From IMG/VR virus record IMGVR_UViG_3300025120_000437, positions 1-27,232 of that record: a DNA stretch of 27,232 nucleotides, one strand, 5' to 3'. The position numbers and the translations under genes are program-made. How positions within the stretch are numbered: the stretch's first letter is position 1; every line of letters starts with the position of its first letter. The notes under the pieces are model-generated. The model saw nothing but the letters and a program-made list of their open reading frames with translations, did not search any database and was not told where the DNA came from. Shown one piece after another: positions 8,072 through 27,141 of the stretch. Source of the stretch: a virus.

Positions 8072-8479
8072 ATGGCAAGAATAATACAGAGTAAATTTCC
8101 TATAGATCTTACCCCTAGTGTAGCGGTAGGATATGGATTTCCTATAAACGGACCTGCTGTATTTGTACCTACTTTTACTACAAGAGAACAAACTAAATCT
8201 AATTTGATTAACTATTTGTTAACTAATAAGGGAGAAAGAGTATTTAATCCTAATTTTGGGGCTGATTTAAGAAATTTATTATTTGAAAATATAGTAGACT
8301 CAACTCAGGATGACATAATAGTTATTATATCGGATTATATTCGTTTATTTTTTCCTACTGTAATTGTTAAAGAAATTAAATTTGTTAACGATCCAGATAG
8401 AAATACAATTAACTTTATTATGACATATCAAATATCAAATTTAGGAGAAGAAGATAGTATTAACATAGAATTACAATAA
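8072..8479 (+). CDS. 25: Baseplate wedge / sheath initiator gp25 (gpW, TssE family)
   Basis: At 135 residues it has nearly the length of T4 gp25 (132). It carries the family signature: NLINYLLTNKGERVFNPNFG (44-63), where the GERVFNPxFG stretch contains the conserved E-x-x/R-x-x-P-like core. This is followed by DLRNLLFENI and a C-terminal beta strand segment after FFPTVIVKEI (93-102). In T4 and in type VI secretion (TssE) this protein anchors the first ring of the contractile sheath to the baseplate. The gene overlaps gp6 as TAATG, matching the gp25-gp6 (gpW-gpJ) order of contractile-tail phages. The upstream spacer is three bases plus A-rich sequence. Confidence 0.9.
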   Translation: MARIIQSKFPIDLTPSVAVGYGFPINGPAVFVPTFTTREQTKSNLINYLLTNKGERVFNPNFGADLRNLLFENIVDSTQDDIIVIISDYIRLFFPTVIVKEIKFVNDPDRNTINFIMTYQISNLGEEDSINIELQ

Positions 8480-10356
8480 TGGCTAAATTAGATAGAGACA
8501 TAAGGTATACTGATAGGGATTTTAATTCTATCAAAAATCAACTAATACAATACTCAAAAACGTATTTTCCAAATACCTATAATGATTTTACAGAGACATC
8601 TACAGGTATGTTATTTATGGAAATGGCTGCTTATGTTGGTGATGTATTATCATTTTATCTTGATAATCAAATTCAAGAAACATATATTCAAAAAGCTAGA
8701 CAAACAACTAACTTATATGCTTTAGCTTATGGTTTAGGTTATGTACCTAAAGTAACTACAGTAGCAAAAGTTGATATTGATTATTTTCAACAAGTACCAG
8801 CTATAACAGTGGATGGAGTTTCAGTTCCAGATTATAATTATGCTTTATTAGTTCCTGAAAATACTCAAATTGCATCTAAAAGTAATCCTAATATAAAATT
8901 TCTAACAGAAGATGCAATTGATTTTTCATCCTCTAGTTCATTAGATCTAACAACAGTATCTGTTTATCAAATATCAGGAAACAACCCATCATATTATTTA
9001 TTAAAAAAGTCAAGAAAAGCAACATCAGCAACTATAAATACAACTACATTTACATTTACAAATGCTAAAAAGTTTGATACTGTAAGTGTTAATGATGCAA
9101 ATATAGTAGGTATATTAGATGTAGTAGATAGTAATGGAAATAATTGGTATGAAGTACCTAATTTAGCCCAAGAAAGTGTATATAATTCAATTAGAAACAC
9201 AAACACAAATGATCCAAATTTCGTATCAGACCCAGAAGTACCTTATTTATTAGAATTAAAAGCAGTACAAAGAAGATTTGTTTCTCGTTTTATGTCATCA
9301 GGTTCATTACAGTTACAATTTGGAGCAGGTAGTACTAATTCTACAACAGAAGAAATTATACCTAATCCTGATAATGTTGGTTTAGGTTTACCATTTGATA
9401 GAACTAAATTAACGACTGCTTTTTCACCTACAAACTTTGTATTTACAGATACTTATGGGATCGCTCCTTATAATACTACTTTAACAGTAAGATATTTAAC
9501 AGGAGGAGGAGCTGCTTCTAATGTAGTAGCTGGTGAACTAACAGGTGTAAATGATGCAGGTGTAACTTTCGTAAATCAACCTATTGTAACAACACCAGCA
9601 GTTACTTCAGCATTAGCAAACCAAATATTTTCATCACTAGCAACAAACAATCCTTTAGCTGCAGATGGTGGGGGAGATGGAGACACAGTTGAAGAATTAA
9701 GATTAAATGCTTTAGGTAATTTCCAGAACCAATTAAGAACTGTAACTACACAAGATTATTTAATTAGAGCATTATCTTTACCTGCTAATTTAGGTGTAAT
9801 TGCAAAGGCACATGCTCAACCTCAAAAGATAGGAGATTATTCATCAGGTGAATTACCATCAGTATTAGATTTATATGTTCTATCTTATGATGCAAATAGA
9901 AATTTAAGGACAGCATCTGTAACATTAAAAAGAAATTTAATGACTTATTTATCAGAATATAGAATGATAAATGATTCAATTAATATAAAAGACGCTTATA
10001 TAATTAATATAGGTGTTAGTTTTGAAATTGTAGTTAACCCTAACTTCAACAATAGTGGAACTTTAACAGGATGTATAACAACATTACAAGAATACTTTGA
10101 AGTAGATAAATGGCAAATAAATGAACCAATTATACTTAAAGATATTTTTGTTTTATTAAGTAAAGTAGAGGGAGTACAAATAGTAAAAAATATACAAATT
10201 AGTAATTTAACAGGAGAAAGTTTAGGATATAGTGATTTTGCATATGATGTAATTGCGGCCAATCAAAATGATGTGATTTATCCATCTCTAGATCCTATGG
10301 TGTTTGAAGTTAAATATCCTAATCAAGATATATTAGGTAGAGTAGTACCAATATAA
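8479..10356 (+). CDS. 6: Baseplate wedge protein gp6 (gpJ family)
   Basis: A 625-residue protein, close to T4 gp6 (660). The N-terminus shows the family's typical opening: IRYTDRDFNSIKNQLIQYSK (8-27), then FTETSTGMLFMEMAAYVGD (38-56), YLDNQIQETYIQKARQ (61-76) and LGYVPK (86-91). The middle is beta-rich with a conserved-looking GDGDTVEELRLNALGNF near 398-414. The C-terminal third is the mixed alpha/beta dimerisation part (YEVDKW-like EYFEVDKWQINEP). gp6 forms the backbone of the wedge ring that opens when the tail contracts. It is translationally coupled to gp25 and is the counterpart of P2 gpJ. Confidence 0.9.
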   Translation: MAKLDRDIRYTDRDFNSIKNQLIQYSKTYFPNTYNDFTETSTGMLFMEMAAYVGDVLSFYLDNQIQETYIQKARQTTNLYALAYGLGYVPKVTTVAKVDIDYFQQVPAITVDGVSVPDYNYALLVPENTQIASKSNPNIKFLTEDAIDFSSSSSLDLTTVSVYQISGNNPSYYLLKKSRKATSATINTTTFTFTNAKKFDTVSVNDANIVGILDVVDSNGNNWYEVPNLAQESVYNSIRNTNTNDPNFVSDPEVPYLLELKAVQRRFVSRFMSSGSLQLQFGAGSTNSTTEEIIPNPDNVGLGLPFDRTKLTTAFSPTNFVFTDTYGIAPYNTTLTVRYLTGGGAASNVVAGELTGVNDAGVTFVNQPIVTTPAVTSALANQIFSSLATNNPLAADGGGDGDTVEELRLNALGNFQNQLRTVTTQDYLIRALSLPANLGVIAKAHAQPQKIGDYSSGELPSVLDLYVLSYDANRNLRTASVTLKRNLMTYLSEYRMINDSINIKDAYIINIGVSFEIVVNPNFNNSGTLTGCITTLQEYFEVDKWQINEPIILKDIFVLLSKVEGVQIVKNIQISNLTGESLGYSDFAYDVIAANQNDVIYPSLDPMVFEVKYPNQDILGRVVPI

Positions 10357-10367
10357 TAAAATAAAAA

Positions 10368-12962
10368 ATGGCTAATAGAAAAATATTCCCTACAAAAGAT
10401 GCTTCAATGTATACTATATCCCAAGGTATGAATACTGGGTTGGATGAAATACTAGAAGCTACTACTGTTATACAAGAACAAAAACCTCAAGTTAGTAGAT
10501 ATTTACTTGAATTTTCACAAGATGAAATTAATACTTGGGTTACTTCTAGCGTATCAGGTTCAACTTTAGGTACAACAGCTGGAGTAATGGTACTTGCAGA
10601 TCCTTATTTAGTAAGACCAGAATCATATCAAAGATTTGAAACTAAAGGATTATCGTACCCAACAAGCTCAAGAAATAAATTTGATGCTGTAGTAGAGCCA
10701 TTATACTCAGGTAGTCAAAACCCAAATGAACCAATATATGCAGGTGGAAGCGGAACAGGTTTACAACTTTATTTAGCAACAGGTGCAGCATATTTTAAAC
10801 CAGGAGTTAGTTTAAGTGCATCAATAGCAACAAGCAATGCAGGTGGTCAACCTGCTGATAATGGTACAATTATGACAGCTCCAAACGGTAATTATGGTCC
10901 ATTTGCATTTAATAGAGGTGCAACAGGTGCTTTAGAAGCAGATACACAAGGTGCGACTGTAACACTTGTAGTTGAAAATAATAGATTTGAAAATGCAATT
11001 GTAGGAACAACAGCATTAACCTCAGGTGCTCAATTATTTGGAACAGATCTAACTGAAGGTGCTATTCCTTCTTATGGTGATTCTAATGCTGCAACAATGA
11101 CTGTTTTAGCTGCAGATTTAATAGCTGCAGGAATACAATTTCAAGGAGGTGGTTTAATTTTTAATCAAAATATTCTTAGTATAACAGGAGGAGCAGCAAA
11201 AACAGCAATGGGTGGTCAAACAGGACCATTTTTGGTAACTTTATTACCATCCATGGTATCTGGTGGGGTAATGCAAACAGGCGATTCAGCTATAGTATCA
11301 TTAACAGCTATTGCAAATGGTAATTTAACAGTAGCAACCGTTGATACTGCAGGAGATAAATATGTAGATGGTAATATAATAACAATACCACAAGCAACAC
11401 TAATAGCAGCAGGCTTTACTGGTGCTGTAGGTACTTTAACAATTACTTTAACAGCATCTAATATAACAGAAGATATAGGATCAAATGATGTTACTTTTAA
11501 TAATGGATTTGGACAATTAGATGATGATTGGGGTGTGTTTCCAATTATTACTTTAGCTGCAAATTATGATCCTAAATTATCAAGAGGTAAAGGATACAAA
11601 TATTCAGATAGATTATATATCCCTTCACAATCATTCCATGGATCAGAGGATTATTATTTTGAATTAGATAGATCAAATGCAGGAGACAATTCAGATACTT
11701 TTGAACCCGTTGAACATAAAATTACAATGGATAATTATGCAGCTGTAGTTACAGGTTTAGGAATGGATCAAACATTACAAGTTAGAGCAGCATCTGGAAG
11801 TTGGAATATGGGAACAGGAAAATTTAATAATAGTCCTGTTACAACAGATGGTGTAAGTTGGGAATATAGAAACTTTTCAGGGTCGGTTGCTGATGGAGCT
11901 ATTAAATGGGCTAAATCAGGAGCTATGACCACTTCAGCAGATCAACAAATAATATCTACAACAGTAGGTACTGCAGTTGGTACATTAAATAATATAGCTG
12001 GTAATGGGGGTAGAAGTGGAACGGGTGCACAATTTACAATTACAACTACTGGAGCACAATTTACAATTACAACAGTAACTTGCACAACAGCAGGAACAGA
12101 TTATATACCAGGAGATACAATAACAATATTAGCAGCAGCACTAACAGGTGGTGCTTTAGGAACAGTAACAACAGATTTAAAATTTAAAGTAACATCAGTA
12201 GTTGGATTTGGGGCATATTCAATAGCTTCATGGTCGGGTTCATTAGATGGTGCTGGAGGAAATTGGTATACAGGTTCAAATGTGGGGTTAGATATAGAAC
12301 AATCTAAAACATTTTCTTATGGACAAGGAATTGACCTTAATATTGATGTAACTAATACAATAAAAACATGGTATACTTACTCATTAGCAAGTAATACTAA
12401 AGGTTTTCCAAATAATGGATTTTTAGTTAAACAATCGAGTTCAAAAGAATTTGTAGATAATAGAAATTTCCAATCTACTTTTAGATACTTTTCAGTAGAT
12501 ACAAATACAATATATCCACCAGCATTAAATTTAATGTGGAATGATTATAATTTTGCAACAGGATCAAGCATACAAAAAGTATTATCAACACAAGAATCAT
12601 TTGTAAACATTTATAATAATTCAGGAACATATTATTCAGAAAGTGTACCTAGATTAAGAATATCAGCAATACCTAAATACCCCGATGTAGTATTTCAAAC
12701 GGCTTCGTTATATACTAATAACCATTACTTACCATATACTTCATCATTTTATGCTATTAAAGATACAGATACAAATGAGTACGTGGTTCCATTTTCAGAC
12801 CCATACACTAAAATAAGTGCAGATAATGTATCTAGTTACTTTGATGTAGAGATGGCTGGGTTGGAACCAGAAAGATATTATACTATATTGATTAAATCCA
12901 CAGTAGGTGGTACAGTAAAAGTATTTGATGAAGATATAATGTTTAAAGTAATTAATGGATAA
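10368..12962 (+). CDS. Virion structural protein with DNRLRE-like N-terminus and two GD modules
   Basis: An 864-residue, beta-rich protein. Residues 5-50 (FPTKDASMYT, NTGLDEILE, SRYLLEFSQDEI) resemble the start of DNRLRE-type beta-sandwich domains of surface proteins. Two copies of the recurring GD module occur, with cores AGDKYVDGNIITI (328-340) and AGTDYIPGDTITI (575-587); the second contains a tandem 9-residue duplication (GAQFTITT at 553-570). The C-terminal part has DNRNFQSTFRYFSVDTNTIY (697-716) and a beta-rich end. It lies directly after gp6 and overlaps the next gene as TAATG, so it is probably a baseplate-peripheral or fibre-attachment protein. I cannot match it to a single T4 gene. 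Confidence 0.75.
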   Translation: MANRKIFPTKDASMYTISQGMNTGLDEILEATTVIQEQKPQVSRYLLEFSQDEINTWVTSSVSGSTLGTTAGVMVLADPYLVRPESYQRFETKGLSYPTSSRNKFDAVVEPLYSGSQNPNEPIYAGGSGTGLQLYLATGAAYFKPGVSLSASIATSNAGGQPADNGTIMTAPNGNYGPFAFNRGATGALEADTQGATVTLVVENNRFENAIVGTTALTSGAQLFGTDLTEGAIPSYGDSNAATMTVLAADLIAAGIQFQGGGLIFNQNILSITGGAAKTAMGGQTGPFLVTLLPSMVSGGVMQTGDSAIVSLTAIANGNLTVATVDTAGDKYVDGNIITIPQATLIAAGFTGAVGTLTITLTASNITEDIGSNDVTFNNGFGQLDDDWGVFPIITLAANYDPKLSRGKGYKYSDRLYIPSQSFHGSEDYYFELDRSNAGDNSDTFEPVEHKITMDNYAAVVTGLGMDQTLQVRAASGSWNMGTGKFNNSPVTTDGVSWEYRNFSGSVADGAIKWAKSGAMTTSADQQIISTTVGTAVGTLNNIAGNGGRSGTGAQFTITTTGAQFTITTVTCTTAGTDYIPGDTITILAAALTGGALGTVTTDLKFKVTSVVGFGAYSIASWSGSLDGAGGNWYTGSNVGLDIEQSKTFSYGQGIDLNIDVTNTIKTWYTYSLASNTKGFPNNGFLVKQSSSKEFVDNRNFQSTFRYFSVDTNTIYPPALNLMWNDYNFATGSSIQKVLSTQESFVNIYNNSGTYYSESVPRLRISAIPKYPDVVFQTASLYTNNHYLPYTSSFYAIKDTDTNEYVVPFSDPYTKISADNVSSYFDVEMAGLEPERYYTILIKSTVGGTVKVFDEDIMFKVING
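12024..12077 (+). repeat. In-frame tandem duplication of a 27-base unit
   Basis: Two adjacent 27-base units (12024-12050 and 12051-12077) share GCACAATTTACAATTACAAC exactly (12027-12046 and 12054-12073). They encode GAQFTITTT then GAQFTITTV. The near identity of the DNA points to a recent slippage event. Confidence 0.85.
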
Positions 12963-13597
12963 TGGCAAAACCAGCTTACAAATTTAATTATCAAGGATTA
13001 TCTGCTATGAATAAGAATGCGGCTAATAAGGCTAATACTAATTCTAAAGTAAGTACAGGTATAGGAAATCAAAGTACTAGCACTACAAAATCAACACTTG
13101 GATATAGTCCAGCTGGTGCTGTTTCTGTTAGTCCTATGACTCCATTACCAGGTAGAGCTCTTCCAGAATCACCAGCAGGACAAGAAAGATTTAATGCTCC
13201 ACCTTTACTACCAGGTGAATCAGTATCTTTACAAAGACAAGCTTTTAATAGGCAACAATTTGATGATACTATTAACACAAATTTTACAGAATTAGGAGTA
13301 GCAAATGGACCAGATCCAGCTTCTTTTGATCCTAGCTTGGCTACCGTAGGAGATTTTTTTACCATATACCAATCACTATTTTTCCAAATACCGAAAGATG
13401 CTGATGTAAATTCACACTTATTTTTAGTTAAAGAAAGTAGTGAATTTTTACAATATGTAGCTCAACAAGAAGAAATAGATGCATTGCGAGAAGAAATACT
13501 TGATTTGCAACAACAAAATTTAGATCTAGCTACAGATATAGCAAATGTAACAAATGAATTAACAGCTGCTTTATCTGACGCATCAAACATAGGATAA
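12962..13597 (+). CDS. Structural protein with C-terminal coiled coil, 211 aa
   Basis: A 211-residue protein in three parts. Residues 1-95 are Ser/Thr/Asn/Pro-rich and probably disordered. Residues 100-165 form a compact segment with FDDTINTNFTELG, FDPSLATVGDFFTIYQSLFF and IPKDADVNSHLFLV. Residues 170-205 form a coiled coil (EEIDALREEILDLQQQNLDL). The middle segment resembles a conserved hypothetical protein I associate with the baseplate operon of marine T4-like phages. The gene is coupled by TAATG overlaps to both the 864-aa gene and the giant gene, so the three proteins probably assemble together, and the coiled coil could trimerise. No specific function is known to me. Confidence 0.7.
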   Translation: MAKPAYKFNYQGLSAMNKNAANKANTNSKVSTGIGNQSTSTTKSTLGYSPAGAVSVSPMTPLPGRALPESPAGQERFNAPPLLPGESVSLQRQAFNRQQFDDTINTNFTELGVANGPDPASFDPSLATVGDFFTIYQSLFFQIPKDADVNSHLFLVKESSEFLQYVAQQEEIDALREEILDLQQQNLDLATDIANVTNELTAALSDASNIG

Positions 13598-16500
13598 TGA
13601 TAGAAGACAACACAACACAAAATAATGATTCGATGGTTACATACTCTTCATCTGTCCAGGTAATAGACCCAGGAAAGATATTTGTAGATGGGTATGAATT
13701 ATCTAATCAAAATGTTATAGAAAGTGAAGACTTCCCAGGTTCCTTTACACAAGGTAGTAATACCATGGAATTTTATATATATGATGCTAGTAAGCAAATC
13801 ATATATTCTGATTATAACTTTCAAAATTATTTTGTTGATAGTGAGGCTGAAACATATTCTAATTATAATGTTAAAACACAAGAACAAACAATAACAACTG
13901 ATTCGATTGTTTTAACTCCCGAATCAGATATTGCAAATCAAGGTTTTACTAATGGTAATTTATATGCTATATATAATTTTATAAATTTAGAATTAAATTC
14001 ATCATTAGAAACTCCATATTATTTAGCTGAAATATCATCTGACAGAACAGAAATAAGACTTAAATCAAACGTAATTACAACGGGGCAAATGAAAGCTTCG
14101 TTTGTAAACCTAAATACAAGATTAAATACACCTAGTTATTTTGATGAAATTTATATTTCATTTGGTGATAATGACTATCATATAGGTGTAAATATAAAGT
14201 ATGATGATAGTTTAGGTCAAGTAAGCCCTAATGCTTTTTCAGTAGCAGGTAAGGGAAGTGTTCAAAAAGGTAACACTATTGGTCAAGCTTCAATATTATT
14301 AAAATTATATGATCCCCTACCAGTTGAATTTGAATTATTAGATTCTCTATATGTTTGTACTAAAACAGCAGAAACACAAGCTTATTTAGTTAATTTTGTT
14401 AACAATTATGGAACGGCTCAGGGAGGTGGTGTAGGAATAGGAGGTTCTGGTATTGATAATATAATACAATTAAAAGGTCCAAATTCAAACTTAAAAATAA
14501 ATGAATTTGTTAATGGACCTTCTACGTTTAAATCTAAAAAAGAATTATTAAGTACTAAATCAACAGGTTCAAAAGACCAACTTTTAAACAGGTTAGCCCA
14601 AACTGGGGTATCTTTAAATTTAGAATATACAACAGCATCATTTGCTGATTTTGTTAATTTTTCATCTGCTAAAGCAAGAGTAAGTAACTTTGTAGAAAAG
14701 GTATCTAGAATACAAGCATATGAAGCTGATATAGCTACAATTACAGCAACAACAGCATCCAACCCTGGTGTTCCTCAAATATCATCAAGTTTAGCAACAT
14801 TATATACTCAAATAGAAAATGAAATAGTAGCATTTGATGGTTTTGATTATTATCAATATTATGCTACATCTTCAGATGCTTACCCAAAAATAGGAACAGC
14901 ATTTCCAAGACCATTAGAAGCAACACAATCTGTTAACGCTCAAAGTTGGATATTAGCAACAGAAACATCAGCCTCTAGATTTGATGAAGATAATCAAAAT
15001 TGGTTATATTACACAATTCCTGATTTTATTAAAGAAAATACTTCAAATGCTAATTATTTAGAATTTGTAAATATGATAGGCCAATCTTTTGATGAGATGT
15101 GGTTATATACAAAAGCAATAGCTGAAAAAAATAATACTACAAATGAATTTGATAAAGGTGTTCCTTTACAATTAGCAGATGATGTAATAACCTCTTTAGG
15201 ATATACAGGGTATGGTAATAATTGGAATAACCAAGATAACTTTTTTGGATTAATTGGTAGTGATAATGGAGATTTTTTACCACCAACAGGGAGTGAATTA
15301 ATTACTCAATATATAGCCGTAAATGGACCTGGAGGAATTGTAAATTATTGGGAAGATTTTTATTCATTTGGGGATTATGTTCAACAATTAGACTCACCAG
15401 GATTTCCTTATCCTATAGATAAAGTAAGTAAAGAAATATTTAAGCGTCTTTATCATAATATGGCTTACCTTGTTAAGAAAAAAGGTACAGTATCTGGGTT
15501 AAGACAATTAATTAATATTTGGGGTATACCATCTACAATATTAAGAATAAATGAATTTGGGGGTAAAAATAAAGATGAGGAAGATGATTATGATTTATGG
15601 TATCAAAGATTTAGTTATGCTTACAAGCCAGTACCAGCATCTACTAATTATGCAAGTTCATCTGTAAGAATACCATGGCAACCTTTATATAGAAACTTTA
15701 TTAATGATCCTGTTGAATTAAAAGTAGGAGAAACAATAACATTATCTAGTACAGCTCTAACAGGAGCTACAAATAGTACAACTACAGGCCCAATATCTCT
15801 TGATGCTTTTTCAATTGATAATGGATCAGGTGGTACTTGTACATTAACATCAAATGGTTCAGGTGTAATTACAACTTTAACAATTTTATCTTCTGGTACA
15901 GGATATACAGATGGAACAGTAATAACTATAACAGCAGCAGCTATAAATGATTTATTAGGTTCTCCTTTTGGAACATCTGTAGCAGGAGGAGCTGGACAAG
16001 CTGTAGTAGCAAGTGCTGATGTTGAAGGTGGATATGTAGTACCTGATGGTTTAGGATTTAGATTTAAAACTACAGGTTACCCATCATCATCATATGCTGG
16101 TTTATTTAATACACAATCATTATTTGTTAAAAAATCCCAAACAGCAGACCCAGATGTAGCTGATTTAGGTATTGTTTTATATTACACAGGTTCAGTATCA
16201 GGTTCAGGAGCAGATGGTTTAGGACCTATGTATAGTGGTGGAGGTACTAACGCTTATGTTAATTATGGTGAGATGAGATTCTTACTAGCAGGTGATTTAG
16301 CTGAAGGTGGAACTGCAATATCCCCACCTATTTATTTACCATTTTTCGATAAAGGATGGTGGTCTGTAGTATTACAAAGAGATCAACATCCAACAGCTAC
16401 AGATGATAGTCAAAATACTACTTATACTTTATATGCTGCAAATAAAATTTATGATGGAGCTGATGGTAATCAAATTGGATTTACTGGATCTGTTAGCTTA

Positions 16501-19500
16501 ACAGTTAATGGTGCTACATCTTCTTCATTAAATGAATCTTGGAATAATTATGTTGCTACTAATAATGTAGCTGGTGGTTATTTAGGAGGTTGGGGTGATA
16601 CTTTAGGTAGTGGAGAAACAGGTAGTATAGGAACGGTAACAGCACCAGGAGGTAGACAAGCTGATTCCAATATTGGTATTGGTTTATCAGGTAAAAACTT
16701 TTCAGGATCATTTCAAGAATTTAGATATTATTCAAATGATATAAGTCAATCTGTGTTTAATGATTTTGTAATGAATCCTGAATCAATTGAAGGTAATAAT
16801 ATAACAGGGTCAGAAAGCTCATTTGATATAGTAAACTTTAGAGCGCCATTAGGTAATGAATTAGAAAATTTATTTACATCTTCATTAACTACAGCTAATA
16901 CTGATGTATTAACATCATTACATCCTGCAATAACAGGCTCTTCACCATTAACAATAACAGGATCATTTATAAACCCTGCAAATGGTTCTATCACATCTAG
17001 TTATGATGTAAATTATAATGCTAACACAGCAAAAAGAACATATAGTGAAACAAATAAAGAAACATATTTCTTAGATCAACCTTCAATAGGGGTAAGAAAT
17101 AGAGTAAGCAATAAAATAAGATATTCAACCAATTTAAATTTTGGTAAAGTATTATCAGATCAAGTTAGTATACAACAAGATCCACCTATGAGTCAAAGTT
17201 ATACTGATAATATTAATTTATTAGAAGTAGCATTTTCCCCAACAGATGAGGTAAATGATGATATAATTCAATCTTTAGGTTATGGAGCAATACAAGAAGT
17301 AATTGCTGATCCTAGGTTTAGATCATCATCAGATGATAATTACCCAGGATTACAAGCAATAGCAAAAGAATATTTTCAAAAATATTATACTAGCAATACA
17401 TTTGATTATTTACGATTAATTAGGTATTTTGATGATTCGCTATTTAGAGCGATTAAGAACTATGTACCTGCACGTACAAGTGTGTCTACAGGTATTGTAA
17501 TTAAACAAAACATGCTAGAACGTAGCAGATACCGAGAACCACAAGTTGACATAGTAACTACACAATCATACGCTCCATTTAATCAACCATTAACATTTAA
17601 AAATTTAGAGCTAACAGGTTCAATTACAACACATCAATTATGGAATAATGTAACTCAAAATACTTATTATTCATCTTCTGATATAGTTCAAATTTATGGA
17701 GGACCAGGAGGAAGTGTTAATCAATATAATGTATTAAAAGAAGGTGGAGCCTTTTTAATTACTGAAAATGACAATTTAGCATTAACTGCGGGCGCTGCAG
17801 CTATCTCATTACTTGAATCAGATCCATCAACGGAAACATCAAGTGATATAAACATAGTAAATGCAGGACCTTTAGAAGGAAAAGCAACCGCTATATTAAA
17901 ATTTACAGGTACTTCAGCAGCTCTTAGTACAGGAAATGCTAATTATGCTATAAGCAATGTTACAGATGGTTTTACTGTTAAATCATATGCAGCGGTTAAT
18001 GATGCTGCTCTCCAAAATCAAATAAATAATGGATTTGTATGTTTTTTAGGTAATGGTAATGCAGCAGCAAAATCAGCTGCTTTAGCTCAAGCAATTAACT
18101 CACCTAATGGACATGGAATAGAGGGATTAGGAACAATAACTACTTCTATATCAACAACTACTGTAACAAATGATACTTTAACACTTACAAACAATGAACC
18201 AGGTACAACTGGAAACGATGCATTTAAACCTACTATAGGAATATCAATAGCTGGTAGTGTTTCACTTGTTCAAGCATTCTCAGGTGGTACTAGTAGATTT
18301 AACAATGTATTTTTAAATACTGATAAGTCAGTAGAAACACCATTATATGTAGATTACTACTTTACTAGTATTCCAGCAAGTCCAATGAATTTAACAATTC
18401 AAGCTTCATCAAGTTTAAGAGGAGTTGTGATGACTAATGTATCAACTTATACAGTACAAGACCCACCAGGTGCAATTTTACCAAATTCTTTATTTACTAT
18501 ACATCCTGGAGAAGATATGTATATTTTAATTTCTACAGATGTAGCTATATCAATTGGTGCTTATCAAATTGCATTAGGAGAAAGTACAACTAAAATACCA
18601 GATTCTGACACAATACCTCAATCACAACAAGGTTATTTTACCTTCAACACAACATCTTTAGGTATAGATACCGTTTGGGATAGTTATCAAGAACAATTTT
18701 ATAATGGAGAATATAGTGGTAGTGAAATAAATGTTGAAAGTAAAGTTCAATATAATCCTTACAGAAAGGTAAAACCAAATTCAACGGCATTTAATAATAT
18801 TATAATTGACAATACAGATGCTTACGTATCAGCAAGTGCTCCTGTTAATGCTGGTGTAGCAACTGAAATATCTCTTTTAACTGGTGGATCAGTTTATAGT
18901 GTAGGAAATTTTTCTAATATATCAGCTGGAGGTGGAGGAGGATCAGGATTAAAATTAGATTATGTATCAAATGGTATTAGTGTAACTTCTGTATCTATAA
19001 CTAGTGGAGCAGGAAAAGGTGGAACAGGTTATGCTGCTGGAGAAACAGTAACTATACCTGGTGGAAGTACAACATTAGCAACAGCTAATATTGATAGTGT
19101 TGATAATGCTGCTTTACAATTTACTAGTGTAACAGCAAATGGGTTTACTTTTAACAATGCTACTTTTGGTCCAAATTTAAGATTAAGTAATCTTTTCTCA
19201 CAATCAATAATCCCAGGACAAAATTATCTTTTAACATATGATATAACTACAACAGCTGGTACAGCAGGAAAAACAGCAGGATTTAACCAGTTTAATACTT
19301 TTATTGATAACGGTAGTACAGTATCACGAAGAAATGGTATTGGATTTTTAGGTCAAGTTACTCCAGCTGAAGCTTATTTTCAAACTAGAGCAGCTTCATC
19401 AGGAACAGAAACAACAGCAATATCTCATTCGTTTAAAGGAACAAACTTAGCATCAAATGGTGAAGTTAATGAAAATCAATATATGGGAGCTATGTTTGAT

Positions 19501-22500
19501 GCTCAAAGTTCTGTAGTAGGAACAGTTTCAAATATGAATCTTCAAGGTGTAGGTGGTTTATATGATTTAATAAATGCACCAATTTTCTTCGATCAACAAG
19601 ATCAAGGATATGATAATCAAGCAGATTATCAAAATATGTCAAATGAAGATGCTCAAGGTAATATTATATCACCTATATTTTTAATTGAAAATTCTGAAAG
19701 TGTATTATTTAATAATTCAGATTATAACCCATTAAGTAATAATGTTAATTTAAATAGAAGTAGTAGTTATAGATATATACTTTCATATGGTGCTACTCAA
19801 TCAGTACCTAATAATTTTGATTTAGTAGTAACACAATCCTATTTCCCTTCATCTCCATCAGGTACATTCCCTGAAAGAGCAGATGTACCAGATAGTAATT
19901 ATACTATGCCTAGTAGTGTTAATTCTCGATATGGAGGAACTAAATTAAAAAGTTTAGACTATAACTTCTTTACACCTTCAGGATCAATAGGACCAGAAAT
20001 TTCACAACCTATTATGCCCGTAAATAGAAGCAAAAAACCTGTTGGGTTTAGAGTGGCAAATAACTTTTTAGATGGATCAGTTACATCATCATTTATTCAA
20101 ACAGAATTAGGTGGGGGTTCTGCTAGTTGGTCTGGTGATGATTTAGTACCAAGTGGTAGTGCCGTAATTGATAAACATCCAATTTATATGGCTCGTTTTG
20201 AAAATTCATATGAACAACTAGCATTATATAACTCATATCAATTTAATATTGACCAATTAATTGAAATTCCAAGAACAAGTATTGCAGGACAAGAAATAAC
20301 CCCTAATTCAATAACAATAGATGGGTCAAATGAAAACAAAAAATTCGTTTCTGCTATATTTGAACCTAACAGAAAAGCACAAGTAAGTTATTTAAATCCA
20401 AAGACAAGAGATATAGATTACTCTTCAATGCAGATTGGTAACTATAATATTGAAGGTGGTGCTGTAGAATTTATAACAATAAATGCTAATGCTAAAAGTA
20501 GAGTATCAGCTTCATTAGCTTATCAATATACATTAGGAAATAATCCTTCAACAGGAAGTAGATTCCAAACTCAAGATACTATTCAAATGGTTACAGGTAG
20601 TAATACTATAGCTGAACCAGGGCTTAGTGGTTTATTAACAGGAACATTAACAACTACAGGGGTAGTACCAACACTTTCTATAGGTGGTGTTGTAAGTATA
20701 CAAAATATTCCTTTAACCTCAATAGGAGGGCAAGGTTCAGGAGCTAGAATAACATTGTTATATACAAGTAATGCATTTGTTAGTGCTACTATTACTACAA
20801 ATGGACAAGGTTATAGTGCTGGGGATGTTGTAACAATATCACAATCAACTATAAATACATATTTAGCAAATACCAGTAAAGCAGGAGGAACTGCATCAGG
20901 TCCTATATCATTTTTATTAGCATCAGGTAATATAGTAGCAAATCCTAATGAAATTACTTCATTTGGGTTTATATTAAGTGGTAGTTTAACTACTGATTTA
21001 GGAACAGGAGCTAAAATTGGTAAAGTAGGATCTGTTATTACAGGTACTACTCCAGCAACAACCCCTAATGGACAGTATAATAATATTCTAACAGTAACTT
21101 CTGGATCAGGACGAAATATGTTTGTTAATGTTACAGTTAGTGCTGGAAATATTTCACAAATATCTATAGCAAGTACAGGATCAGGTGGTTTTGGATATCA
21201 AATAGGGGATGTAGTAACTATATTAGAATCAATACAAAACGAAAATGGTTTTACCCTTACAGTTGCTGGTGATTATGATTGTGCTGCTTTAACTGCAGAT
21301 GATTTAACAGGAGGTAATACTCCATTTATGCTTAATTTTAACCCTTCACCAGTATCATCTTCAAATACTGTAGATCCAACAGGTGTTATTCCAAGTTCAG
21401 TTCCAGGTGAACAACAATTGTTAATAGGAGGACCTCAATTAGCATTATATCATGCTTATAACGCAACAGTATCATCTTCTTTATATTCAATTAACCCAAA
21501 TCAAGTAGGAGTTACTGATGAAGGACCATTTACTAATTTATGGACTACATCAGGATCAAATCCTGCAAATGCAGAAAATTATTATAATTGGAACCCAGAT
21601 GGTTCTGATTGTACATCTTATCAAGATCCAAATTCTTCATTTTTAATAGAAAGAGGAGATGTACTTAGAGTTGAAGGTATTTTGAATACTATTGATACGG
21701 CAACTAGTGTGTCCCAATCTACTAATGTAATAGAGGATTTTATAGTTGAAGAAATTCAAGATTATTATTATACCTCCTCATTTGCCGATTCAGCACAAAA
21801 TGCTGGGGGGTTAGCAGGTATTATAAATTATCCTAGTGATCAAGTAGTTGGTAATGGTGGTTGTATGGCTACATCAGGAGGAAATCCAAGTACATTTACA
21901 AAAACTATAATAGATAATGGTGCAGCAGCGGGTAATTTTGTTTCAGCTTCTCAAGGTGATTCTACTGAACCATTTTTAGGAGGGGGAGGAACTATTACTG
22001 TAATTTCATCTGGAACTCAAGTGTGTCCTGGTTGGACACAAGCTACTATTACTGGAGGTTCTAATTATCAACCTGGTAATTATATAACAATACCAGAAAG
22101 TGTAATTGGTGATGCTGCTAATTGGACTGGTACTCCACCATCTCAAGGTAATAAAAATGCAGTAACTTTAAGAGTATTAGATATAAATATTATAAATGGT
22201 AATAATAATAACTTTACAGTAGGTGTTGATGTTGGTGCTCCAGCAGGTGCAACTGTATTAAGATCAGGATCAGTAAATCCTTATCATCTTTATGAAGAAG
22301 GAGAAGTTGCTTTAAAAGCACCTACATTTATAAGAACTACTAGAGACCCAAGAGTAGCTTTATCTGGGTTAATAGGTGGTGCAATAACTAAATTTACAAT
22401 AAGAAGACAAATAGAAGCTGATGATAAGGTAATGCTTAAACAAATACCACCACCATCAGGATCAGTAGGAGTTAATACTCCATCAGGTCAAGGTTTTTTA

Positions 22501-22674
22501 ATACCAAATGACTTTTCACCTGTACAAAAATCTAATGCATTAAATATTATTAATCAATTAAAAGCTAAAAATGCTTTTGATAAACCAGAAGAACCAGGAA
22601 TAACAAATAGTAATCCTAGTAATACGGGACCAATTGATTTTGAAGGTAGAGATGTTAATGATCCAATTAGATAA
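13597..22674 (+). CDS. Giant baseplate wedge protein, gp7/P2 gpI-like, with LamG-like domain and repeated modules
   Basis: At 3025 residues this is about three times T4 gp7 (1032). The N-terminus (1-300) is beta-rich and carries no recognised motif. Residues 608-655 (IFKRLYHNMAYLVKKKGT, LRQLINIWGIPSTILRINEF) match the K-G-T-x-x-x-L-R-x-L signature of P2 gpI/T4 gp7-type wedge proteins. Residues 815-1065 look like a LamG/concanavalin-type lectin (GWWSVVLQRDQ, FSGSFQEFRYYSNDISQSVF). Residues 1210-1320 form a helical conserved block with FDDSLFRAIKNYVPARTSVS. Five GD modules (cores at 766, 1808, 2402, 2530, 2820) and one EPGTTGN module (about 1427-1565) interrupt the rest. Its position after gp25 and gp6 fits gp7/gpI. 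The added domains probably decorate the baseplate and may bind host glycans; that is inference. Confidence 0.75.
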   Translation: MIEDNTTQNNDSMVTYSSSVQVIDPGKIFVDGYELSNQNVIESEDFPGSFTQGSNTMEFYIYDASKQIIYSDYNFQNYFVDSEAETYSNYNVKTQEQTITTDSIVLTPESDIANQGFTNGNLYAIYNFINLELNSSLETPYYLAEISSDRTEIRLKSNVITTGQMKASFVNLNTRLNTPSYFDEIYISFGDNDYHIGVNIKYDDSLGQVSPNAFSVAGKGSVQKGNTIGQASILLKLYDPLPVEFELLDSLYVCTKTAETQAYLVNFVNNYGTAQGGGVGIGGSGIDNIIQLKGPNSNLKINEFVNGPSTFKSKKELLSTKSTGSKDQLLNRLAQTGVSLNLEYTTASFADFVNFSSAKARVSNFVEKVSRIQAYEADIATITATTASNPGVPQISSSLATLYTQIENEIVAFDGFDYYQYYATSSDAYPKIGTAFPRPLEATQSVNAQSWILATETSASRFDEDNQNWLYYTIPDFIKENTSNANYLEFVNMIGQSFDEMWLYTKAIAEKNNTTNEFDKGVPLQLADDVITSLGYTGYGNNWNNQDNFFGLIGSDNGDFLPPTGSELITQYIAVNGPGGIVNYWEDFYSFGDYVQQLDSPGFPYPIDKVSKEIFKRLYHNMAYLVKKKGTVSGLRQLINIWGIPSTILRINEFGGKNKDEEDDYDLWYQRFSYAYKPVPASTNYASSSVRIPWQPLYRNFINDPVELKVGETITLSSTALTGATNSTTTGPISLDAFSIDNGSGGTCTLTSNGSGVITTLTILSSGTGYTDGTVITITAAAINDLLGSPFGTSVAGGAGQAVVASADVEGGYVVPDGLGFRFKTTGYPSSSYAGLFNTQSLFVKKSQTADPDVADLGIVLYYTGSVSGSGADGLGPMYSGGGTNAYVNYGEMRFLLAGDLAEGGTAISPPIYLPFFDKGWWSVVLQRDQHPTATDDSQNTTYTLYAANKIYDGADGNQIGFTGSVSLTVNGATSSSLNESWNNYVATNNVAGGYLGGWGDTLGSGETGSIGTVTAPGGRQADSNIGIGLSGKNFSGSFQEFRYYSNDISQSVFNDFVMNPESIEGNNITGSESSFDIVNFRAPLGNELENLFTSSLTTANTDVLTSLHPAITGSSPLTITGSFINPANGSITSSYDVNYNANTAKRTYSETNKETYFLDQPSIGVRNRVSNKIRYSTNLNFGKVLSDQVSIQQDPPMSQSYTDNINLLEVAFSPTDEVNDDIIQSLGYGAIQEVIADPRFRSSSDDNYPGLQAIAKEYFQKYYTSNTFDYLRLIRYFDDSLFRAIKNYVPARTSVSTGIVIKQNMLERSRYREPQVDIVTTQSYAPFNQPLTFKNLELTGSITTHQLWNNVTQNTYYSSSDIVQIYGGPGGSVNQYNVLKEGGAFLITENDNLALTAGAAAISLLESDPSTETSSDINIVNAGPLEGKATAILKFTGTSAALSTGNANYAISNVTDGFTVKSYAAVNDAALQNQINNGFVCFLGNGNAAAKSAALAQAINSPNGHGIEGLGTITTSISTTTVTNDTLTLTNNEPGTTGNDAFKPTIGISIAGSVSLVQAFSGGTSRFNNVFLNTDKSVETPLYVDYYFTSIPASPMNLTIQASSSLRGVVMTNVSTYTVQDPPGAILPNSLFTIHPGEDMYILISTDVAISIGAYQIALGESTTKIPDSDTIPQSQQGYFTFNTTSLGIDTVWDSYQEQFYNGEYSGSEINVESKVQYNPYRKVKPNSTAFNNIIIDNTDAYVSASAPVNAGVATEISLLTGGSVYSVGNFSNISAGGGGGSGLKLDYVSNGISVTSVSITSGAGKGGTGYAAGETVTIPGGSTTLATANIDSVDNAALQFTSVTANGFTFNNATFGPNLRLSNLFSQSIIPGQNYLLTYDITTTAGTAGKTAGFNQFNTFIDNGSTVSRRNGIGFLGQVTPAEAYFQTRAASSGTETTAISHSFKGTNLASNGEVNENQYMGAMFDAQSSVVGTVSNMNLQGVGGLYDLINAPIFFDQQDQGYDNQADYQNMSNEDAQGNIISPIFLIENSESVLFNNSDYNPLSNNVNLNRSSSYRYILSYGATQSVPNNFDLVVTQSYFPSSPSGTFPERADVPDSNYTMPSSVNSRYGGTKLKSLDYNFFTPSGSIGPEISQPIMPVNRSKKPVGFRVANNFLDGSVTSSFIQTELGGGSASWSGDDLVPSGSAVIDKHPIYMARFENSYEQLALYNSYQFNIDQLIEIPRTSIAGQEITPNSITIDGSNENKKFVSAIFEPNRKAQVSYLNPKTRDIDYSSMQIGNYNIEGGAVEFITINANAKSRVSASLAYQYTLGNNPSTGSRFQTQDTIQMVTGSNTIAEPGLSGLLTGTLTTTGVVPTLSIGGVVSIQNIPLTSIGGQGSGARITLLYTSNAFVSATITTNGQGYSAGDVVTISQSTINTYLANTSKAGGTASGPISFLLASGNIVANPNEITSFGFILSGSLTTDLGTGAKIGKVGSVITGTTPATTPNGQYNNILTVTSGSGRNMFVNVTVSAGNISQISIASTGSGGFGYQIGDVVTILESIQNENGFTLTVAGDYDCAALTADDLTGGNTPFMLNFNPSPVSSSNTVDPTGVIPSSVPGEQQLLIGGPQLALYHAYNATVSSSLYSINPNQVGVTDEGPFTNLWTTSGSNPANAENYYNWNPDGSDCTSYQDPNSSFLIERGDVLRVEGILNTIDTATSVSQSTNVIEDFIVEEIQDYYYTSSFADSAQNAGGLAGIINYPSDQVVGNGGCMATSGGNPSTFTKTIIDNGAAAGNFVSASQGDSTEPFLGGGGTITVISSGTQVCPGWTQATITGGSNYQPGNYITIPESVIGDAANWTGTPPSQGNKNAVTLRVLDINIINGNNNNFTVGVDVGAPAGATVLRSGSVNPYHLYEEGEVALKAPTFIRTTRDPRVALSGLIGGAITKFTIRRQIEADDKVMLKQIPPPSGSVGVNTPSGQGFLIPNDFSPVQKSNALNIINQLKAKNAFDKPEEPGITNSNPSNTGPIDFEGRDVNDPIR

Positions 22675-22717
22675 AATAGAAAAACAATAACAACTTGGAA
22701 TAAAAATAAAAAAATCA

Positions 22718-22728
22718 TATATTTATAA
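22718..22728 (+). promoter_or_regulatory. Candidate late promoter element TATATTTATAA
   Basis: It lies in the 70-base gap between the giant gene and the next gene, 16 bases before the ATG at 22745. TTG at 22695-22697 stands 20 bases upstream, so this copy also fits the Bacteroidota promoter layout (-33 TTG, -7 TAnnTTTG) apart from the final G. The rest of the gap is A-rich with no hairpin. Confidence 0.5.
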
Positions 22729-22744
22729 CTAAAACAATACAGTA

Positions 22745-23440
22745 ATGGGATATTTAAATAATCAGGTAGTAACAGTTGACGCTATCTTAACTAAAAAGGG
22801 AAGAGAATTACTAGCAAAAGGTGATGGATCTTTCAATATAACACAATTTGCTTTGTCTGATGATGAAGTAGATTACACTTTATACAACCCAAACCACCCT
22901 TCAGGATCGGCTTACTATGGAGAAGCAATTGAAAATATGCCTTTATTAGAAGCATTTCCAGATGAAACTCAAATGATGAAGTATAAGTTAGTTAGTTTAG
23001 CTAGAGGTACTGCAAAAATGCCTATATTACAACTAGGTCAAACGAGTTTAAATATTGCTAATGGAGCTCCATTTAACATTACACCAAACACAATTAATTA
23101 TCTAGATGGTCAAACAACAGAACCATCAGGATATCAATTTACAGTATCGGATATTAGAGTATTTGGTGCTTTTGTAGGTAGTGGAATTAATAGTGCAGCT
23201 GCAGTAGCTCAAGCTTCAACAAATGCAGCAACTATAATCACAAATGGAACAGCAACTTCTCAAACTGTTATTGGATTAACTTGTAGTGGAAATGGAACAT
23301 CAGTTCCAACATTATTTAGTACAACAAGTACTTTATATGCTACATTAACAGTAATAGGATTAGATTCAGGAGCAAGAGCACAAATTCCAGTATTCATATC
23401 AAATAAATCAATAGCAACTAAAACAGCTGCAGTATCCTAA
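22745..23440 (+). CDS. Conserved virion structural protein, 231 aa
   Basis: A 231-residue protein with a strongly conserved-looking N-terminus: VVTVDAILTKKGRELLAKGD (8-27), then FNITQFALSDDEVDYTLYNP (30-49). I recognise this pattern (new tail or baseplate component with LTKKGRELLA and D-D-E-x-D-Y) from virion proteins of marine T4-like phages, where no function is assigned. Residues 60-140 continue the conserved part (LVSLARGTAKMPILQL). The C-terminal third (145-231) is Ala/Thr/Ser-rich, beta-prone and looks variable. The gene begins a new block behind the TATATTTATAA element and is followed after 12 bases by the 497-aa gene. Confidence 0.75.
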   Translation: MGYLNNQVVTVDAILTKKGRELLAKGDGSFNITQFALSDDEVDYTLYNPNHPSGSAYYGEAIENMPLLEAFPDETQMMKYKLVSLARGTAKMPILQLGQTSLNIANGAPFNITPNTINYLDGQTTEPSGYQFTVSDIRVFGAFVGSGINSAAAVAQASTNAATIITNGTATSQTVIGLTCSGNGTSVPTLFSTTSTLYATLTVIGLDSGARAQIPVFISNKSIATKTAAVS

Positions 23441-23452
23441 TAAAATAAAATT

Positions 23453-24946
23453 ATGGCAAGACCTACAAATAGATCACAAGCAACAAGACAAGGAGCTGCT
23501 CCTAATTATACAAGAGTATCAGCTAACAACGGCACAGCAGCCGCAGGAGCATTACCAGCAGCTTCTTCACAAGGAGGGGCTTATGTAATATTAACAGCTG
23601 GGGATGTAGTAGTTAGTAATGACTCAGTAACTGCACCTATGTGGAGTAGTAATAATCCTACTTTAAATTTTTTCTACACTAGTTCAACACAAGTATCTAG
23701 TAATGTAGCAGAATATTATACATCAATTTACCAAACAGCATCAACAGAAGTATCTGCTGAAATACAGTTTGATATAGCTTATGGAGACCAAGTAGGTAGT
23801 GGTAGTCAATTTTTAAATAATTTAGTAACTGGATCCACACCTTCAAGAACAAATTATGGTCAATATAGAAATTTAGTATTAGGAGATGAAAATGCTTCAT
23901 TTGTATTTGGTGGTGTAACATCATCATATTGGTATGCAATGCCAATTGAAAGAGCAAGATATAAACAAGCTATTCTACCTGGAACATGGACATTAAATAT
24001 ATCAGGATCTACTAGTACACTATCAACTACAGCAGATCAAAAAGCATCTGTAATAACAGCTATGTCAGGCATGGATGCTGCTACTTATAATGATGTTACT
24101 TTAACAGGAGGTAGTGGAGGAACATCTGTTACTCATAATGGAGTTGCAGGCGTAAATGCAAGAGCAGACATTATCGTTGCTTCTGCTACAACATTAACAT
24201 CAATTATATTTGATCAAGGAACATATTATAAAGCAGGAGATATATTAACTATAGCAGCAGGTGCCTTATCAACAGGAGCTGGTTCAGCAGAAGTTCAAGT
24301 TAGATTAAATGCACCATTAGCATTTAAAAAGAATGCACAAGATTTAGGTTCTAGTGTACAATTAACAGATGATAGTAAATTATCTACAACCACACAATTT
24401 TGTGATGCAGGAAGAATTTTCCAAATAATATCAGGTTCAGCTGGTGTGCAAGGAGGAACAACTCAAAATGTAAATGGTTACACAGCAGGATCAGGATCAT
24501 ATGGTTTTTTATTACCAGACATTAATACATTAATATTAAATGGAGAAGCTTTAGATGCAATACCAGAAGTTGGGGGTATTAATTTTGGAACAAGTAGATC
24601 ATTTGATTCAAAAGGAAATAATTCATTACAATTAGTAGATGCATTACAAAGATCAGGTAATAATAATTTAGGATTTACTATAAATTCAAAAGAAGATTTA
24701 TCATCTGATTATATATTCTGTAGAGCTAAAAACTCAGAATATAACTACTCAGCAAATCCATCATTTATATCAAGTTCTACTGGAGCTGTGTTATTTAATG
24801 AATTTGTAGAAAACCCAACAACTTACATAACAACAGTAGGTTTATATAACATATCACAAGAACTATTAGCAGTAGCTAAATTATCAAGACCATTAGAAAA
24901 GAATTTTACGAAAGAATTACTTGTACGAGTTAAATTAGATTTTTAA
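23453..24946 (+). CDS. Conserved virion structural protein with one GD module, 497 aa
   Basis: A 497-residue protein. Its framework resembles a conserved baseplate/tail protein of marine T4-like phages: EYYTSIYQTAS and EIQFDIAYGDQVGSGS (residues 86-119), TPSRTNYGQYRNLVLGDEN (129-147), MPIERARYKQAILPGTWTLN (163-182), GRIFQIISGSAG, and the end YITTVGLYNISQELLAVAKL (458-477) followed by SRPLEKNFTKELLVRVKLDF. A GD module with core QGTYYKAGDILTI (255-267) lies between the PGTWTLNISG strand and GRIFQIISG, apparently as an insertion into this framework. The C-terminal 40 residues are paralogous to the end of the next gene. Probably a peripheral baseplate or tail-attachment component. Confidence 0.75.
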   Translation: MARPTNRSQATRQGAAPNYTRVSANNGTAAAGALPAASSQGGAYVILTAGDVVVSNDSVTAPMWSSNNPTLNFFYTSSTQVSSNVAEYYTSIYQTASTEVSAEIQFDIAYGDQVGSGSQFLNNLVTGSTPSRTNYGQYRNLVLGDENASFVFGGVTSSYWYAMPIERARYKQAILPGTWTLNISGSTSTLSTTADQKASVITAMSGMDAATYNDVTLTGGSGGTSVTHNGVAGVNARADIIVASATTLTSIIFDQGTYYKAGDILTIAAGALSTGAGSAEVQVRLNAPLAFKKNAQDLGSSVQLTDDSKLSTTTQFCDAGRIFQIISGSAGVQGGTTQNVNGYTAGSGSYGFLLPDINTLILNGEALDAIPEVGGINFGTSRSFDSKGNNSLQLVDALQRSGNNNLGFTINSKEDLSSDYIFCRAKNSEYNYSANPSFISSSTGAVLFNEFVENPTTYITTVGLYNISQELLAVAKLSRPLEKNFTKELLVRVKLDF

Positions 24947-24951
24947 GATGA

Positions 24952-27141
24952 ATGGCTGTTTACAAACAATTTAATACTAATGAAGTAGTAGTCTCCCCGT
25001 TTAAAGCTAATAAACGTTTTAGATTTGAGAACAGTCAGGTTTCGTCCTCAGATGTACAAATCGAATATTATCAATCACAACAGGGTACCTACTTATCTGG
25101 TTCATTTGACACTGGATTTAATACAATGCAAGATGGTGTAACCGTTTTTAGTAGTATTAAACAACTTTATTATTCAAATTACCTAACAGCATCTACAGGT
25201 GATCCTATGGTCACAGCTAGTTTTATACCAGGGCAAACAGGTCCACAAGGTCAAGATTTAGGATTTAGTCAATATGTTGGTAACACAACAGGTCCTAGAT
25301 TTGAAAACTTTTTACAATCATCATTAACACAAGATAGAAAATTTTCTCAATTTTCAGCATCTATGGCTCCAATTGGATTTGCAGGTACTAATACAGGAGT
25401 ATCTCAATCTGCTATAGCTGATCTTAATGCTAACATTAGTACAACTAAATTATCTTTTGTAACATTGCCTGATTTATTAGCAAAAGGAATTAATGAAACA
25501 TATGTTTTATCTCATGTAGAATGGCCTATAGCAGACATTGGTAACTCACCTTTTACATTAACAACAGGAGGTACTCAAATTACAACTGTATCAGCAAGTC
25601 AATTAGTAGAAGAAAGAATTGATCCAAATGTTAATGGTACATTAAGTGGTTTAACATTAAAAAATAATGATTTAGTTACTTTTATTAATGATGGTAGTGT
25701 TGGAGATGATATTACATTATATTATCTTCAAAAACCAAAAGGACCTTCTGTTATATCAATCCCATCAATGTTGTATGGTGAAGCAATTCAACCATCTTCA
25801 TTTCAATTTGAATATACATCTTCAATTAACTTTACACGTAGTATAGTTGATGATGATGGGCAAGGTAATTTAATTGTAACACAATCTAACTCAACAGGAG
25901 TACCTTTCTTTTCAGGAAGTATAGGTCAAATATTTTACTCACAAGGAATAGCAGTAATAACAGGACCAGATAGTGGTAGTTTAAGGGAATTTGCTCATAA
26001 TGTAGGGTATAAGGATAATATGAATCCTAATATAATGTCTTCTTCTTTATCATATTCGTCTTCAATAACAATAGATGAAAATCAATATAAATGTACAGTA
26101 AGAGATGATGAATTTTCATTTACAACAAACCCATCAGCTTTAGGACCTCCAGGAAAATTAACATCAACTACAAATCAATTATTTTCATCATTTGATGCTG
26201 GAAATTTAAATTTAGCTGCATCAGCAAATGATACTTATGCAGTTACACCTCGTAATAGAGTAGGTGATGTACAAGCAACTACATTTTATATCTTTGGAAA
26301 TAGAGCATCTAGAACTACATTTGGTCAACAATATAGAGTAGAGCTAGTATCAGCAGGAAATAATAGTTTAGAATTTGTAGGTTGGAATGGAAATAAAAAT
26401 GGAGGAAGAAATTCTTTAAATCAAGTACAATTCAATAGTACAGGTAGTGCTGTAGGGATAGCAAAAGGTTTTTGTGATGCTATAAATGGGGTAGATGGGT
26501 TTGCAGGTCAAATATCAGCTTCATTACAATCAACAGTTTCAGGTTTAGATACTGTAAAATTAACACAAGTAGAACCTGGAACAACAGGGAATACTAGAAT
26601 TAAATATGCAGATTCTTTTAATTTATTATTAGCATCAGGTACTAATTCACCAACACCATCTAGAGGACAAGAATATTTTGGAAATACAAATCAACCAGCA
26701 GGTAATCCTCAACCAGTTTCAGGAACAGATACTTTCCAATCTTCAAAGGGAGCTATATTAAATGTTGTAGTTTCAAGTAATGTTGTTACAAGTATAAATG
26801 TATCATCTTCAATAACACCAGGTGGAGTTTCACAATCATTTGCAGGTACTAATTACAGTGTAGGTGATAGATTAGAAATATTAGCTAGCCAAATAGGTGG
26901 AGGTGCAGGAGATCCTTTAGGAACAGGATCAATTCTATTAACATCCGGAGATGTAGAATTAGAAAAAAATACTCAAATATATCATGATTTTTGTACTGGG
27001 TCTTATTTTAGTCCTTATGTTACAACTGTAGGATTATATAATGAGAGCAACGATTTAGTATGTGTTGGTAAATTAGCAAGACCATTGCCAATATCACTTT
27101 ACACAGATACAACTTTTATGATCAATTTTGATACAAACTAA
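24952..27141 (+). CDS. Virion structural protein with two recurring modules, 729 aa
   Basis: A 729-residue protein. The N-terminus (YKQFNTNEVVVSPFKANKRF, 4-23; SSIKQLYYSNYL, 67-78) looks like a conserved attachment domain. Residues 434-563 carry the EPGTTGN module also found in the giant protein (EPGTTGN at 541-547). Residues 594-668 carry a GD module (core AGTNYSVGDRLEI, 631-643). The C-terminal 41 residues (YVTTVGLYNESNDLVCVGKL and on) are paralogous to the end of the 497-aa protein. The start at 24952 (ATG GCT GTT) is chosen because an ATG four bases upstream is out of frame and stops after eight codons. It is probably a tail-surface or baseplate-peripheral protein. Confidence 0.7.
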   Translation: MAVYKQFNTNEVVVSPFKANKRFRFENSQVSSSDVQIEYYQSQQGTYLSGSFDTGFNTMQDGVTVFSSIKQLYYSNYLTASTGDPMVTASFIPGQTGPQGQDLGFSQYVGNTTGPRFENFLQSSLTQDRKFSQFSASMAPIGFAGTNTGVSQSAIADLNANISTTKLSFVTLPDLLAKGINETYVLSHVEWPIADIGNSPFTLTTGGTQITTVSASQLVEERIDPNVNGTLSGLTLKNNDLVTFINDGSVGDDITLYYLQKPKGPSVISIPSMLYGEAIQPSSFQFEYTSSINFTRSIVDDDGQGNLIVTQSNSTGVPFFSGSIGQIFYSQGIAVITGPDSGSLREFAHNVGYKDNMNPNIMSSSLSYSSSITIDENQYKCTVRDDEFSFTTNPSALGPPGKLTSTTNQLFSSFDAGNLNLAASANDTYAVTPRNRVGDVQATTFYIFGNRASRTTFGQQYRVELVSAGNNSLEFVGWNGNKNGGRNSLNQVQFNSTGSAVGIAKGFCDAINGVDGFAGQISASLQSTVSGLDTVKLTQVEPGTTGNTRIKYADSFNLLLASGTNSPTPSRGQEYFGNTNQPAGNPQPVSGTDTFQSSKGAILNVVVSSNVVTSINVSSSITPGGVSQSFAGTNYSVGDRLEILASQIGGGAGDPLGTGSILLTSGDVELEKNTQIYHDFCTGSYFSPYVTTVGLYNESNDLVCVGKLARPLPISLYTDTTFMINFDTN

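Follow-up and report, generated by a model that had tools for sequence, protein, structure and literature searches.

Copies of a probably mobile GxxYxxGD beta-rich module in four tail and baseplate proteins of a contractile-tailed phage

The window analyzed here, a 27,232-base virus record taken at its full length, holds a baseplate and tail gene cluster of a contractile-tailed phage; all genes and modules located below lie on the plus strand. PHROGs matches identified a gp25-like gene (8072-8479), which sets the baseplate wedge context, and a gp6-like wedge gene (8479-10356). Downstream of the latter follow, in order, genes for an 864-aa protein of the tail and baseplate region (10368..12962), a 211-aa protein, a giant protein of 3025 aa (13597..22674), a 231-aa protein, and two tail proteins of 497 aa (23453..24946) and 729 aa (24952..27141). 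The nearest named relatives were picked from a phage collection via the wedge protein, which is 46% identical in Flavobacterium phage immuto, 45% in Microcystis phage Mel-JY01, and 39% in the uncultured jumbo phage LR756508. All three keep the gene order of the window, and about 160 syntenic IMG/VR loci were also found. Scans with Pfam and NCBIfam gave no named domain in the window proteins or in the module consensus described below, and Foldseek returned no match for the framework of the 497-aa protein.

Two further observations concern the annotation of this cluster. An 828-aa protein of the window (5201-7687), which sits within the baseplate gene cluster, aligns with immuto gp115 (L001, 6393-7508); the latter is labeled as DNA repair ATPase RecN, and we regard that label as doubtful. 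In addition, the 497-aa and 729-aa proteins have a common 41-residue C terminus (TTVGLYN...L.RPL; 24818-24940 and 27010-27132) with 41% identity, and for this reason they may be paralogues with a common attachment domain.

The first-pass annotation had described nine segments built on a GxxYxxGD core in four of these proteins. All nine copies are present, in frame, in the four proteins named, although the strict pattern is matched by eight: G-x-x-Y-x-x-G-[DNE]-x-x-[TE]-[IV] fits 8/9 copies, and in the copy at 15895 Thr takes the place of D/N/E (GTGYTDGTVITI). The core starts given earlier each fall one codon upstream of the first Gly, which lies at 11352, 12093, 15895, 19021, 20803, 21187, 22057, 24218, and 26845. 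With a relaxed pattern, nine matches were observed, against a mean of 0.017 in shuffles of the four proteins (maximum 2 in 2000). When the segments were aligned as profiles, each omitted copy was found again by the profile of the other eight, over about 55-80 residues and with i-Evalues of 6e-10 to 8e-4. Taken together, the shuffles and the leave-one-out searches establish that the nine copies form one sequence family and not a chance motif. The domain core spans about 55-70 residues, and the copies are ~20-50% identical to one another, with the core G, Y, G, D, and T/I kept. The reported richness in Gly, Thr, and Ser holds in part, as the modules are enriched (33-49%, compared to 30-32% in whole proteins) but unevenly so.

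A predicted structure was made for one module and reached moderate confidence (pLDDT 72, pTM 0.57). The model comprises four strands of 3 or more residues and one short helix; it has no fold match in the PDB and weak matches in BFVD (best E 0.1, probability 0.99). Since a single module was modeled, at moderate confidence, a common fold across all nine copies would rest on sequence. We considered whether short beta segments rich in Gly, Thr, and Ser had come to resemble one another through composition, a convergent origin that we judge highly improbable. The low complexity of the segments fits such an origin, as does the outcome of a tblastn search of phages with the module consensus and the low-complexity filter on, which gave no match; this failure is probably due to the filter, and a search with another copy returned cyanophages only, weakly. 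Against convergence stand the leave-one-out recovery, the shuffles, the similar models predicted in viral proteins, and the iterated profile, which collected about 300 copies among the matches listed.

The first-pass annotation had further proposed that the modules are mobile domains set in older frameworks, and this was borne out in all four protein families, in which most homologues lack the segment. The counterparts of the 864-aa protein have 369 aa in immuto, 386 aa in Mel-JY01, and 420 aa in LR756508; those of the giant have 1265, 1336, and 1400 aa, respectively; and the immuto counterparts of the 497-aa and 729-aa proteins have 337 and 357 aa. Across all loci, median lengths in the families come to 377, 1533, 338, and 335 aa, compared to 864, 3025, 497, and 729 aa in the window. 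The module profile is present in 6/117 members of the 864-aa family, 6/108 of the giant family, 3/116 of the 497-aa family, and 9/148 of the 729-aa family, raw counts that include the window and a few duplicate loci and that divergent copies may escape. Homologues with and without modules were compared site by site, and the framework closes neatly around the empty site, so that the segments are not integral parts of it.

In the 497-aa protein, module 8 (24098..24340, residues 216-296) occupies a clean insert (24014..24343, residues 188-297) that, in the alignment, stands in place of a 0- to 5-residue beta turn of the relatives. An AlphaFold model places this insert, itself of low confidence, at a hairpin turn between strands 180-184 and 301-306. 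Module 3 of the giant (15778..16029, residues 728-811) is held by a clean insert (15706..16014, residues 704-806) that is missing in 4/4 closest relatives, although its flanks reach up to 78% identity with the nearest of them. A GTTGAA direct repeat found near both edges of this insert may mark recombination points or may be due to chance. The giant also carries module 4 (18922..19137, residues 1776-1847), module 5 (20716..20928, residues 2374-2444), module 6 (21091..21312, residues 2499-2572), and module 7 (21952..22200, residues 2786-2868). The 864-aa protein contains module 2 (11997..12239, residues 544-624; 85% identical to its orthologue in L169), most of which falls in a clean insert (11922..12203, residues 519-612) that is missing, between conserved flanks, in relatives of ~350-390 aa and in L091. 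Module 1 of the same protein (11256..11471, residues 297-368) lies in a larger extra segment of nearly 390 residues (10536-11711, residues ~57-448); other, shorter inserts occupy the same site in L010 and L091, making it a repeated insertion site. In one contig (G005; L173, 3001-5106), the 864-aa homologue is broken into several open frames, which reflects either a genuine disruption or faulty sequencing. Finally, module 9 of the 729-aa protein (26725..26958, residues 592-669) belongs to an insert (26182..26991, residues ~411-680) that is missing in most relatives, and the module is found there in the closest relative and in four other loci (L008, L010, L011, and L015).

That this last site is filled in several relatives could be read as a trace of ancestral segments since lost from the short homologues, and at single sites such a loss may have occurred. 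We give this reading very little credence, as more than 90% of sampled homologues, and by length also the three distant named phages, are without the segments, and none of the four nearest relatives has the first insert of the giant.

Other extra segments accompany the modules. A second module type of ~120 residues, which ends near EPGTTGN, occurs in the giant (17887-18270, residues 1431-1558) and, within the insert that also holds module 9, in the 729-aa protein (26272-26628, residues 441-559). The two copies are 29% identical, and among the loci fetched this type was seen only in the window and in L085, its closest relative. The 729-aa protein also contains an extra segment at residues 137-262 (25360-25737) that is present in L085 and in no other relatives; it is without the GxxY module and has no family match.

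The copies differ in their apparent age. The closest relative (contig G001) has orthologues of the modules in the 864-aa, 497-aa, and 729-aa proteins, with 59-85% identity. Because of these orthologues, the three sets of insertions predate the split from that relative and are not recent. The giant presents another picture. At three shared slots, the segment of the relative ranks 87, 90, and 177 by similarity among 295 family members, while much of the framework around the slots is 60-78% identical between the two. Modules at equivalent slots are thus no closer than random family members, which suggests turnover of cassettes; exchange is the simplest reading of the slot ranks given so similar a framework. 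Very fast divergence could mimic exchange at four giant slots, since those slots lie where relatives vary anyway, and the weak matches that L085 gives at two slots are possibly no modules at all. Duplication within the genome was considered as a source of the copies and rejected, as every copy has a best outside match that outscores its best match inside the window. Beyond the relatives, the best matches come from unrelated phages and not from the window.

Sporadic distribution, fast turnover in the giant, and low similarity among copies would also be expected of near-neutral spacers, that is, bulk spread through loops by recombination and without specific binding. We hold this to be improbable: the core residues (G, Y, G, D, and T/I) stay conserved at ~20-50% overall identity, and the modules of three proteins persist in the closest relative of the window at 59-85% identity.

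To follow the family beyond this locus, IMG/VR was searched with a DNA pattern for GxGYxxGDxxTI. The profile domain was found in 116/120 loci among the matches listed, a fraction which, because the profile contains the pattern, indicates that the motif is seldom due to chance there and not how prevalent the domain is. Module members match 16 PHROG families, which include virion structural, baseplate wedge, head closure, head decoration, and tail fiber proteins. The same module thus occurs in unrelated frameworks of other phages, which further backs its mobility; a 1023-aa protein in L430, for instance, has the module alone in common with the giant (58% identity over 45 residues). Synechococcus phage S-SM2 carries five profile matches in its gp7 (4156 aa), a single match each in gp8 and a VrlC-like protein, and a tandem array of three in gp14; these proteins match at 3e-9 to 9e-4 and belong to the same iterated profile family. 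Among 120 pattern-selected loci from bacterial and archaeal genomes (L310-L429), in which phage and cellular contexts are pooled, 27 contain the profile domain, several of them in ~230- to 250-aa proteins of Bacteroidota, and the remaining loci look like chance motif matches. No model in Pfam or NCBIfam recognizes the family above cut-off.

A relationship to the T4 tail sheath emerged when the module profile was compared to all PDB sequences. The best six matches were T4-type tail sheath proteins gp18 (E 0.001-0.025), with alignments that fall at the start of domain I: YTISTPGSNYAVGDKITV. Among 16 T4 proteins, gp18 alone matches the profile, with a score of 21.4 against a maximum of 14.8 in 2000 shuffles. 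An hhalign comparison with gp18 domain I gave 85% over 25 columns, whereas two unrelated tail alignments gave 0.8 and 0.6%. The module consensus falls below the gathering cut-off of PF22639 in Pfam (17 bits versus 27), and 17/56 module members match PF22639 weakly (best E 0.0069). Since the consensus is below that cut-off and the module model has no fold match in the PDB, we consider the family a probable homologue of gp18 domain I and not a member of its family. Such kinship, if correct, supports an outward-facing position of the module.

From the common family, the empty sites, the cassettes replaced or quickly turned over in the giant, and the unrelated frameworks, all of them observed, we arrive at our main reading, to which we assign a probability of about 75%: the nine segments represent a single mobile, beta-rich domain, each acquired independently and from an external source, and they sit in surface turns of tail and baseplate-region proteins, where they form putative exposed knobs for accessory binding. 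Domain copies would arrive independently, from other genomes, in surface turns of older proteins, and each would fold as an autonomous, solvent-exposed knob. The framework would stay intact despite the inserted knob and keep its role in assembly, and the knob would bind weakly in an accessory role, with host-envelope glycans the likeliest target. We put the odds of this putative adhesive role, the likeliest one, at about even; docking of the phage's own fibers, as performed by T4 gp18 domain I, would be the next most likely. The proposal that shuffling of the module diversifies the phage surface is plausible.

Should docking be the main function, the module would hold retracted fibers or adjacent subunits within the virion and would not contact the host. 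The profile match to the fiber-binding gp18 domain I points this way, as does the insertion domain of a wedge protein in Anabaena phage A-1(L), which holds the long tail fiber (PMC10966104). We nevertheless think it rather unlikely, as head decoration and head closure members and the many copies per giant argue against one partner, and kinship with gp18 domain I is only probable. Returning to mobile, exposed accessory knobs, we would extend the proposal only tentatively to an uncatalogued mobile family, homologous to gp18 domain I, that serves as an exchangeable adhesion or docking cassette across nearly all of the contractile-phage exterior (neck, sheath, baseplate, fibers, and head decoration).

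Overall, the analysis defines a widespread virion domain that is unnamed in Pfam and NCBIfam, with boundaries now ready for expression, and explains much of the size of large tail proteins as short conserved frameworks with inserted cassettes. It also ties the module, as a testable proposal, to a T4 domain whose structure and position are known. Neither the module family nor the probable kinship with gp18 domain I is present in the curated libraries or open-access literature searched.

Shuffling of domains in phage tail and baseplate proteins is already known and recent (Smug et al. 2023, PMC10684548). That mosaicism is the same general phenomenon as described here, recorded in a survey built largely on ECOD domains. 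The Ig-like domains of phages resemble the module as small beta-domains that occur sporadically and are exchanged between the tail, head, and baseplate proteins of many kinds of phage, much as the module is scattered over unrelated virion proteins. They differ in that no Ig, Big, or Fn3 model of Pfam matches the module above cut-off (single sub-threshold matches, e.g., to Fn3_arc and TIG, were seen) and in that the module copies here are inserted internally; to our knowledge, a conserved GxxYxxGD core is no feature of Ig domains. The GxGYxxxP/GxGYxxGD repeats of cyanophage gp7, gp8, and gp14 (e.g., in Synechococcus phages S-SM2 and S-SCSM2R) belong to the same profile family and, like the window proteins, reside in very large virion proteins of a corresponding baseplate gene cluster. 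Their frameworks are different, and the gp14 copies stand in tandem, often with Pro replacing Gly-Asp.

The closest parallel in a characterized structure is gp18 domain I (PF22639; PDB 3FO8 and 3FOA), a six-stranded beta-barrel plus helix. It differs from the module in being present as one copy, in the sheath protein, and the confident match covers ~25 residues, extending weakly up to 60; the two folds may differ. A strand-GSNYAVGDKITV core, identically ordered, is common to both, and both are beta-domains set inside another domain, as the empty sites and the hairpin position indicate for the loop insertions seen here. In T4, domain I is lodged in domain II, forms a protrusion of the tail, and makes no inter-subunit contacts in the sheath; its binding partners are the baseplate and the long tail fibers in their retracted state, and mutations in it inhibit fiber retraction (PMC3004832). 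For extra sheath domains in general, a role in adhesion has been proposed (PMC9230969). Domain I thus protrudes from the virion, and the module would be exposed likewise.
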